Source of the DNA: Puniceicoccales bacterium Verruco_02
GTDB taxonomy: Bacteria; Verrucomicrobiota; Verrucomicrobiia; Opitutales; Oceanipulchritudinaceae
Length of the DNA: 64,000 nucleotides
Reading direction: 5' to 3'
NCBI GenBank assembly: GCA_001604585.1
Contig: LVBW01000037.1
Coordinates: 514-64,513, forward strand
Shown here: in pieces, positions 29,016 through 51,922 of the stretch
How the letters are laid out: each line of letters starts with the position of its first letter
Numbering within the stretch: position 1 is the stretch's first letter
The notes under the pieces: model-generated
What the model was told of the DNA's origin: nothing
Seen by the model: only the letters and a program-made list of their open reading frames with translations
Databases searched by the model: none
Translations under genes and position numbers: made by a program

Positions 29016-29042
29016 TCAAGATTTCCCGTATTGTGCCGATGT
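29016..29042 (+). promoter_or_regulatory. Sigma-28 (FliA)-type promoter
   Basis: TCAAGATT, 11 bases, GCCGATGT. The enterobacterial FliA consensus is TAAAGTTT-N11-GCCGATAA, so 12 of 16 positions match with exact spacing. It lies about 70 bases upstream of the flagellin-like gene. The 5' leader between contains a small GCCCC-gtc-GGGGC hairpin at 29060-29072 and AAGGAG at 29090-29095. Confidence 0.7.
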
Positions 29043-29109
29043 ACAGGGAGTCTGAGTGTGCCCCGTCGGGGCGAAGCGTCTAACCTTTCAAGGAGCTAGT
29101 AATCGAGCC

Positions 29110-30705
29110 ATGTCCAGCGTGAAACTCAGTTCCATGAACTGGGACACCATACTGAAGTACAACCTGTCCAACGCCTTCGCCATCCCGAAGTCGGAAGTGG
29201 ATGACAACTCTGCGTACAAATACAAGAGCGTTTCGACCAAGACTTACGGGCAGAGTCTGGCTCTTCTCAACGGCATGAACGAGAAGCTGGGGATTCTCAA
29301 GACCAACCTCCAGCTCATGCAGAACTACGCCCTGAAGGGCTTGAAGGCCACCGTGCTCGATAGCAAGGCCCGTTCGGAGGCCTATGCGCAGCTTCGTTCG
29401 TTGAGCGCGGGTATCGACACCATCGTGCGCGATTACAAGCTGGAGAACATCCCCCTTTTCAACGGGCGCCAGTTCAATCTTTCTTACGGAAGCGGCTCGG
29501 TGAAGGTGAATCTGGACAATCTTTCCTCCAGCGGAGAGAACGGGCTTGGCCTTGCCAGTTCGCCGGAGGGAGCCTTTGCAAGCATCAGCTACGATTATCT
29601 GGCCCTGATGAAAAATTCGGCAACCGACATTGCCGGACTGGACATTAGCGATGCGAAGTCGATTTCCGTCAAGAGCGACGCCTACCCCTACTCCGGTGAA
29701 CTTAAGGACGGCAACTACTGGGTGAAGGTAACATACATGGGGACGCAGTCCACCGTGGAGATACAGAATCTGGACGGCACGACCATCCAGAAAGTGGAGG
29801 GCGTGGACTTTACCGGCACCGGGCAGGTGAGCGTCAAAACGAACGTTGGCGTGGAGCTTTCCTTCGAGAAGACACAGTTCCAGACCGCCCTTGGCGGCGA
29901 CAAGCACGACTGGGAGGTGTTCGGCGCACAGTCCCTGTACGCAAACCTGCGTTACGAGCGCAACGTGCAGCATGTGCTCGACGATGGTAGCGGCAAGACC
30001 CTGACCGAAGAAAGCAGCGTGAGTGTCGCCCGGGGCAGCACCCTTATCGGCAGCAGCGGAAACTTGAAGGTCGGCGCCAGCACATCGCCCGTTTACGACG
30101 GTGTGACGACGATGGACACCGGGCAGTACGACTTGAAGATCAAGTACGATGGGGCCAAGTCCTCGCTCTGGCTCTACGACAAGAGCGGCAAGCTCATTTC
30201 CACCAAGCGCGGCGTGGACCTTACCGGTGAGGACAAGTTCAGCGTGGACATGGGGACGGGCGTCACAATATCGCTGGACCCGAACAACTTCGATTCGTCC
30301 AAGCGAGACTACCACGTGTACCTCAACTACACTGCCGCAGACAAGGCCAGCGAAGAGCTGGACTACAATGCATACTACGAGCGCATAGTTGCGGCCATCG
30401 CCACCATTCAGGAACAGATAGACGTCGTTGCACAGGCAAAGGAGGAGCTGGAGAGCCGCTACTCCATCATTCAGAATGCTTTCAAGCTGGCCAACAATGG
30501 CGGAGGCACCAGTTCGGTCTTGTCCAGCCTCATTGGTGGTTCCTCGCTGGATGCTTCAAGCCTTTTCTCCACTGTCAACAACACCAGCAGCAGCTCAGGC
30601 GGATCCGTCCTGCTTAGTTCGGGCAACATTCTCGGTGCCTTGCAAAGCTCGGTCGAGTCGATGTCCGACATAGATCCGGCTGTGCTTGCTCGCTACTACC
30701 GATGA
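29110..30705 (+). CDS. Divergent flagellin-like secreted filament protein
   Basis: A 531-residue protein whose ends resemble flagellin. Residues about 45-120 (LNGMNEKLGILKTNLQLMQ; RSEAYAQLRSLSAGIDTIV; NIPLFNG) match the D1 heptad region, and residues about 416-462 (YERIVAAIATIQEQIDVV; ELESRYSIIQNAF) match the C-terminal D1 helix. Between them lie two related segments of about 80-90 residues, from about 198 (KDGNYWVKVTYMG) and about 335 (DTGQYDLKIKYDG), each with a GVDxTG...GV.S core, probably D2/D3-like domains. The usual N-terminal LSSGLRINSAKDDAAG motif is absent and a Ser-rich tail of about 70 residues is added. A sigma-28-like promoter and a FliS-like gene support the call. FlgL-like protein is an alternative. 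Confidence 0.7.
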   Translation: MSSVKLSSMNWDTILKYNLSNAFAIPKSEVDDNSAYKYKSVSTKTYGQSLALLNGMNEKLGILKTNLQLMQNYALKGLKATVLDSKARSEAYAQLRSLSAGIDTIVRDYKLENIPLFNGRQFNLSYGSGSVKVNLDNLSSSGENGLGLASSPEGAFASISYDYLALMKNSATDIAGLDISDAKSISVKSDAYPYSGELKDGNYWVKVTYMGTQSTVEIQNLDGTTIQKVEGVDFTGTGQVSVKTNVGVELSFEKTQFQTALGGDKHDWEVFGAQSLYANLRYERNVQHVLDDGSGKTLTEESSVSVARGSTLIGSSGNLKVGASTSPVYDGVTTMDTGQYDLKIKYDGAKSSLWLYDKSGKLISTKRGVDLTGEDKFSVDMGTGVTISLDPNNFDSSKRDYHVYLNYTAADKASEELDYNAYYERIVAAIATIQEQIDVVAQAKEELESRYSIIQNAFKLANNGGGTSSVLSSLIGGSSLDASSLFSTVNNTSSSSGGSVLLSSGNILGALQSSVESMSDIDPAVLARYYR

Positions 30706-31124
30706 GCCGGGCAGATTCAGGCAGGGCAGCGAGGGCATACGGGCAGCACAAGACCGATGGCATGTCCACCTTGGAGAAGATTCGCTTCACGATGAACTGT
30801 GCCGTGCGCGCGGCTCGCGAAAAGGATGCCAACGGCCTGCATCTGGCTCTGGCTGTGCTGAAGGCCGGCCTCAACTTCGAGAATCAGCCGCAGATTGCCT
30901 TGGGCTTTCTGCAACTATACAAGAGCTGCGAAATCGAACTGGAGGAGAGGGGGGACTTCGATGCCGTTTTGCGCATACTCCTGCCATTGCAAAGGGCCTG
31001 GCTGATGGCCGAGCCTAGGCAGGCAATTAGCATCCGCCCGGCTCCAGAGGGCGAAGTCCCGGCGCAAGGTGCAAGAGTGGAGATAATGGACAGTCCGCCG
31101 GACTGGGCCAAGGACATGGAGTGA
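30702..31124 (+). CDS. fliS: FliS-like flagellin export chaperone
   Basis: A 140-residue helical protein that follows the FliS pattern: an AY near the N-terminus (RAYGQHKTDGMSTLEKIRF), a four-helix layout with AVRAAREKDANGLHLALAVL, a LNFENQPQIALGFLQLYKSC middle (compare the LD.E.G.EIA.NL..LY pattern of FliS), and the ILLPLQRAW end matching the L..LR.AW hallmark. FliS binds the flagellin C-terminus before export. Its ATG overlaps the stop of the flagellin-like gene as ATGA, so the two are translationally coupled. The C-terminal 35 residues are an acidic, proline-containing extension. Confidence 0.72.
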   Translation: MSRADSGRAARAYGQHKTDGMSTLEKIRFTMNCAVRAAREKDANGLHLALAVLKAGLNFENQPQIALGFLQLYKSCEIELEERGDFDAVLRILLPLQRAWLMAEPRQAISIRPAPEGEVPAQGARVEIMDSPPDWAKDME

Positions 31125-50953: not shown

Positions 50954-51922
50954 TTGTACGATCAAAACCAGTCTCCCTCTTCGGACAGGCAGGGGCACGA
51001 CCCCTTTTTTCACCCGGAGAAAAATGCCATCAAGCTGTATTTGCAGGAGATAGGGCGCATTCCGCTCCTAACTCAGGCTCAGGAGCTTGCGCTTGCGCGC
51101 AGAGTAATGGCAGGCGATGCTCAGGCAAGGAAGCTGATGGTGATGTCCAACCTGCGCCTTGTAGTAAAAATCGCGCACGACTATGCGAACTTCGGCCTGC
51201 CCATTTCAGACCTCATAAGCGAGGGCAACATCGGCCTCATGAAGGCCGTGGAGCGATTCGACCCCGACAAGGGAGGGAAGCTATCCACCTACGCCGCATG
51301 GTGGATAAAGCAGTCCATAAAGCGCGCACTGGCCAACCAGTCCAAGACCATACGTCTGCCCGTCCACATGGTGGACAAGATAGCCCGTATGCGTCGCACG
51401 GCTATGGCACTGGCCGAGCAACTGGGGCGTGAACCCAGCGACGACGAGATAGCGCGAGAGCTTGGTGTCAGCTCCAGCAAAGTGGCGCATATGCGCAGTG
51501 TGTCGGTGCGGCCGACAAGTCTTGACGCACCACTTGGCGACGACGAGGGCAGCTCCTTTGGCGAGATGGTTGGCGACGAAAACGGCTTCACGCCCTTTGA
51601 AATGCTCCGCGACAAGGCCCTGCGCAAGGAGCTGGTCATGATGCTGGAGCAGATAGAGCCGCGCGAGGCCGAGATAATACGCCTGCGCTTCGGTCTGGAC
51701 GGCGGGCAGGAGCGCACGCTTGAGGAAGTGGGCGAGATGTTCGGCATCACCCGCGAGCGCGTGCGCCAGCTTCAGAATCTGGCCCTCAACAAAATGCGCC
51801 GCATATTCCGCGAAAAAGAGCAGCAACGCAGCGAAGAGGAGATATCCAAGGACCGCGCCGAACAGGGGCGAAGGGACGTGCTTCGCGACTACATACGTAA
51901 CAGCACGGCCAAGGGGCACTAG
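50954..51922 (+). CDS. Sigma-70 family RNA polymerase sigma factor (RpoD/RpoS-like)
   Basis: A 322-residue group 1 or 2 sigma factor. Regions are in order: 1.2 (NAIKLYLQEIGRIPLLTQAQELALA), 2.1-2.4 (NLRLVVKIAHDYANFGLPISDLI, GNIGLMKAVERFDPDKGGKLSTYAAWWIKQSI), 3 and 4 (RERTLEEVGEMFGITRERVRQLQNLALNKMR). There is no region 1.1, as in short primary sigmas of Bacteroidetes and in RpoS. It could be the housekeeping sigma or an alternative; this cannot be decided here. The start appears to be TTG. It is not a FliA-type sigma. Confidence 0.9.
   Translation: MYDQNQSPSSDRQGHDPFFHPEKNAIKLYLQEIGRIPLLTQAQELALARRVMAGDAQARKLMVMSNLRLVVKIAHDYANFGLPISDLISEGNIGLMKAVERFDPDKGGKLSTYAAWWIKQSIKRALANQSKTIRLPVHMVDKIARMRRTAMALAEQLGREPSDDEIARELGVSSSKVAHMRSVSVRPTSLDAPLGDDEGSSFGEMVGDENGFTPFEMLRDKALRKELVMMLEQIEPREAEIIRLRFGLDGGQERTLEEVGEMFGITRERVRQLQNLALNKMRRIFREKEQQRSEEEISKDRAEQGRRDVLRDYIRNSTAKGH

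Follow-up and report, generated by a model that had tools for sequence, protein, structure and literature searches.

Flagellins build the core of the filament with the D0 helices at both of their ends, and D0 also anchors the known axial proteins. In model bacteria the filament is described as requiring FliD for its formation (PMC5072837); the FlaF/FlbT flagellum of Phaeobacter is without FliD (PMC11974857), and in a Caulobacter model an unknown factor, X, takes care of assembling flagellin (PMC7591256). That factor is the gap that a gene described here could fill in the Opitutales lineage. The gene, A, overlaps a second gene, B, in the window, which is the whole stretch of 64,000 nucleotides analysed and comes from an Opitutales MAG (Verrucomicrobiota). 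The A-B pair is a new family with known folds, the flagellin fold and the FliS fold, and was described in no library or publication searched. Its linkage to the flagellum is well supported by the features below and by the genomes in which it occurs.

29016 to 29042, plus strand: sigma-28 (FliA)-type promoter, TCAAGATT-N11-GCCGATGT; 12/16 match, local p = 0.005, recurring 5' of relatives of A.
29110 to 30705, plus strand: gene A, D0-less flagellin-family protein of 531 amino acids (ORF; Pfam match of a paralogue; Foldseek; family of 19 sequences).
29110 to 29181, plus strand: N-terminus of A with the family motif LTxxQIxxFNxPxAFAxxR, here MNWDTILKYNLSNAFAIP, where flagellin has D0 (alignment A5).
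29245 to 29430, plus strand: helices 46-79 and 85-107 of A, corresponding to the N-terminal D1 helices of flagellin (AF2 model; PF00669 profile positions 55-138 in relatives).
29698 to 30279, plus strand: two related beta-rich domains of A in the D2/D3 position (sequence, alignment A5 and AF2 strands; FliC_D2 match in 2/19 members).
30364 to 30498, plus strand: helix 419-463 of A, the expected C-terminal D1 helix (AF2 model).
30499 to 30702, plus strand: Ser/Gly-rich C-terminal tail of A, where flagellin has D0 (low-confidence part of the AF2 model).
30702 to 31124, plus strand: gene B, FliS-family chaperone of 140 amino acids, overlapping A by ATGA (hhalign; Foldseek; Pfam FliS in relatives).

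Gene A, for which a GTG at 29056 is an alternative, longer start, represents an unannotated branch of the flagellin fold in which the D1 helices are kept along with two beta domains and the N-terminal D0 is absent, an assignment that is well supported. The window protein itself gave no direct Pfam match, while a paralogue (L007) matched Flagellin_N with 30.5 bits (cut-off 26.6), and among the 19 sequences of the family (alignment A5) Flagellin_N was found in 7 members at E<=0.01 and FliC_D2 in 2. The family thus has the D1 region of flagellin by its homology to Flagellin_N; D0 is missing from A, as its model contains no long N-terminal helix and the Flagellin_N match in its relatives begins only at about profile position 55. 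The two beta-rich domains share the repeat GxYxxxxxYxGxxSxxxxxDxxGxxxxxxxGVDLTG, seen in the sequence and in alignment A5. The AF2 model of A has low confidence (pLDDT 57), and all 18 of its Foldseek matches in the PDB with E below 1e-3 are flagellar filament, flagellin or FlgL entries, the F41 fragment included; FliD is absent from the fold matches listed. Profile comparisons with hhalign, made against small local sets of FliC, FlgL, FlgK and FliD, gave 6% for FliC, a weak 1.7% for FlgL and a negative 0.7% for FliD, and no Pfam match to FliD_N or FliD_C was obtained for A.

These results agree with an earlier note, made from the sequence, in describing gene ends like the D1 helices of flagellin and a missing N-terminal flagellin motif. 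Its further suggestion, a diverged filament protein of a poorly described motility or secretion system, is supported with two refinements: the family is a diverged flagellin family, but the system is a true flagellum of the FlbT/FlaF type and, because the D0 region is missing, A is probably not an ordinary filament subunit. Other identities considered for A were rejected: a Sec-secreted surface protein, as no signal peptide was apparent by eye in the sequence, and FlgL, as the same genome has a separate FlgL and the profile match was 1.7%. Searching Pfam, NCBIfam and the PDB sequences directly with the window proteins yielded nothing of use; weak matches to Lin1278, to a CRISPR-associated protein and to the NlpB lipoprotein were dismissed as chance.

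That B is a remote chaperone of the FliS family is likewise well supported, by its sequence profile and by its helical-bundle fold. Alignment of the B family with the FliS family by hhalign reached a probability of 97.4% (E 1.3e-11, 106 columns), against 0.7% for a FliT-like control. The best 14 Foldseek matches of the B model in the PDB, individually weak with E-values of 0.03 or weaker, were all FliS proteins from several species, with TM-scores of up to 0.70 by target length, and the helical core of the model is well predicted. Window B alone had no Pfam match; Pfam FliS (PF02561) matched 9 of 14 B relatives weakly, and in about half of the genomes with A such a weak match sits on the gene directly after it. 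The earlier reading of the second gene as FliS-like and overlapping by ATGA was therefore sound, B starting at 30702. The C-terminal tail of A would be the putative docking site for this chaperone.

Upstream of A, 12 of the 16 positions of the promoter site agree with TAAAGTTT-N11-GCCGATAA, and 67 bp separate its end from the ATG at 29110; its coordinates are those of the FliA match first noticed there (12/16, exact spacing, about 70 bases before the gene). The two strands of the 64-kb window carry five sites that score 12/16 or better, so a lone site is weak evidence. When the test is confined to the 120 bp upstream of A, dinucleotide shuffles give p = 0.005 for this site. Across the family, FliA-type sites are enriched 5' of 15 non-redundant A genes (combined p about 2.5e-10), compared with p 0.87 for 20 control genes of the window in the same test, and we rejected a chance match on this recurrence. 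Scores among relatives include 15/16 (L026), 14/16 (L028) and 13/16 (L022); in L011, the closest relative of A, TCAAGAnT...TGCCGATGT is kept and the spacer has diverged, and the A genes of L008 and L021 are without a FliA-type site upstream. These upstream sites support a predicted late, FliA-dependent expression of A.

In the window's genome there are genes for FliA-type sigma factors, FlhA, an FlhF-like protein, FlgN, FlgK, FlgL and three flagellins. Three FliA-like factors lie above the cut-off, and a FliA-type promoter at A thus coexists with a FliA-type sigma factor, as expected of a sigma-28 regulon. The window itself holds a further sigma-70-family factor (51203-51802), distinct from these three, whose FliA/WhiG match is below the cut-off. 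On contig C101, fliC is followed by one unannotated ORF and then by FlbT (2.2e-37) and FlaF (1.4e-32), so the flagellum is of the FlbT/FlaF type, and the pair is of the alphaproteobacterial type. The ORF between fliC and flbT (G000:C101, L073 17883-18323, minus strand) is up to 147 amino acids long and has no Pfam match, and a similar ORF occupies the equivalent place in L055. Large TPR-type proteins lie near flagellin genes at L014 3846-6152, L073 13930-16296 and L081 5055-7391; at least one of them is O-GlcNAc-transferase-like and recalls the Caulobacter flagellin glycosyltransferase FlmG. The earlier note had proposed a search of the genome for fliA, flhA and flagellin genes, all of which were found; neither of the two findings it named as fatal, a lack of flagellin or FliS similarity and a lack of export genes or of a FliA-type sigma factor, was made.

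Of 373 genomes sampled within the order, 15 carried A in a family-profile search, and these are spread over five families. In a phylum sample of 388 genomes, beyond four members of the order, the profile matched only the D1 region of ordinary flagellins of one genome. Named genomes yielded none in a scan with the single A sequence and four A loci, in Opitutales bacteria and a Puniceicoccaceae bacterium, in a scan with the family alignment; a plasmid search returned one marginal flagellin only. The window's genome and two relatives have two A-B loci each, the A paralogue of the window's genome being on contig C1 (30% identity), and L011, nearest to window A, has the same downstream genes. B was found in all 15 genomes with A, and the two genes, whose trees have major clades in common, are co-inherited and usually adjacent. 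They are unlinked in G132 (L012), G426 and G412, the case of G426 resting on a weak profile match at the same position as in G132.

Two of these loci deserve separate mention. In G563 (L034 1375-2517) an intact B and a flagellin gene come after a second, truncated A remnant, which suggests that the A-B-fliC unit was duplicated in tandem and that one A has decayed. Inside a flagellar cluster at L012 9487-13539, the genes after A are one for a GNAT-type acetyltransferase and then others resembling those of surface-sugar synthesis, which possibly serve flagellin glycosylation.

All 15 genomes with A have flagellin and FlaF, and FliD was found in none of them, compared with 67 of the 89 flagellated genomes without A that were tested (Fisher p 2e-8, shared ancestry ignored). 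With genomes at least 90% complete the counts were 0/12 and 54/63, respectively (Fisher p 1e-8, shared ancestry again ignored). No FliS above the cut-off other than B was found in the genomes with A, and in several genomes without it (e.g. G042, G075, G081, G389) fliS closely follows fliD, as B follows A. In the 22 flagellated genomes that had neither A nor a FliD match, a better A profile still detected no A, and G431 (77% complete), from the genus of the A-carrying G412, has FlaF and no A match. The Caulobacter control gave no FliD match and the FlaF/FlbT flagellum of Phaeobacter is without FliD, so the loss of FliD may belong to the flagellum type and not to A.

From this genomic replacement we infer a cap role for A, and a tip cap would be its most likely single role. 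We consider it a good possibility, somewhat short of an even chance, that A-B is a late flagellar operon in the fliD-fliS slot, with A an exported tip-assembly (cap-like) factor and B its chaperone. More tentatively, A may be a new type of cap or tip-assembly factor for the filament, derived from flagellin through the loss of D0, paired with a FliS-derived chaperone of its own and standing in for FliD in an FlbT/FlaF-type flagellum. A FliA-driven late operon of Opitutales with such a flagellum would then make A and B; B would bind A in the cytoplasm, probably through the C-terminal tail of A, and pass it to FlhA, and A would leave through the flagellar channel. At the growing filament tip A would attach by its D1 helices to the D1 of flagellin and form a head with its beta domains. 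In that position it would fold incoming flagellins into place, the part that FliD plays in other systems, with FlaF, and not B, presumably acting as chaperone of the main flagellins. Several points speak against a cap: A has no similarity to FliD, it has no D0, 22 of the 89 flagellated genomes without A are also without FliD, and some genomes have two A-B loci.

Alternatively, A could be an additional junction protein or a minor component of the axial structure, resembling FlgL, placed at the hook-filament boundary or in a segment of the filament and served by B as chaperone. We regard this as rather unlikely: FlgL is among the Foldseek matches of A, Flagellin_N is common to FlgL and the A family, and A directly follows flgL in G213 (flgN-flgK-flgL-A-B, with fliC beside in the opposite orientation), but the FlgK and FlgL slots are already filled, both being encoded separately in the window's genome, A is without the D0 required for axial packing, and its profile comparison with FlgL is weak (1.7%). 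Large beta domains and the lack of D0 would also suit a secreted flagellin homologue that is exported by the flagellum and works outside it, for example in the matrix, in adhesion or as filament decoration, and Vibrio FlaE/FlaF are flagellin homologues that build no filaments (PMC8306008); the association of A with FlaF and with missing FliD fits a core assembly role better, and we find this reading unlikely. The FlbT/FlaF-type system and the precedent of Caulobacter FljJ (PMC7591256) suggest, in turn, a regulatory flagellin paralogue that would time flagellin translation with FlbT and be cleared by export. It seems improbable to us, as FljJ is about half identical to structural flagellins, whereas A is far diverged with its own FliS-type partner, and as the FliA promoter marks A as a late product. 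Finally, B as chaperone of the main flagellins with A a passenger in the operon is very improbable, since FlaF, the flagellin chaperone of the FlbT/FlaF type, is present in every genome with A, and A and B are co-inherited and mostly adjacent, even though B is a FliS relative and lies apart from A in G132 (L012), G426 and G412.

A cap-like tip factor with its chaperone is thus the reading that we carry forward. It makes the A-B pair a concrete, testable tip-assembly candidate in one lineage and, if the cap role is true, a new kind of cap; A is in addition an example of a flagellin without its polymerising end and yet with a dedicated chaperone.

Compared with known systems, A shares with the flagellin FliC (PF00669) the D1 helices and the position of the central beta domains, and its relatives neighbour fliC, but it has no D0 match, its N-terminal motif is replaced, and it carries a Ser/Gly-rich tail and a large two-repeat beta region. 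Like A, the F41 fragment (PDB 1io1) is a flagellin minus both ends, and it is one of the Foldseek matches of A; F41 arises by proteolysis, whereas A is encoded as such in a natural gene and has a chaperone of its own. FlgL (HAP3) has the flagellin-type D1 and is adjacent to A-B in G213, but a separate FlgL exists and the profile match is weak. The FliD cap, like A, is paired with a FliS-type gene, and the two are mutually exclusive in the sampled genomes, although they have no sequence match and FliD is not among the listed fold matches. Compared by description, Caulobacter FljJ and Vibrio FlaE/FlaF are, like A, flagellin relatives that do not build a filament alone (PMC7591256, PMC8306008), but A differs in having a FliS-type partner. 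That partner, B, resembles FliS (PF02561) in its helical bundle, its length, its conserved Tyr, Leu and Trp positions, its weak Pfam matches and its full-length profile match, and differs in having diverged below the Pfam cut-off and in its place next to A, in genomes where FlaF is present as well.
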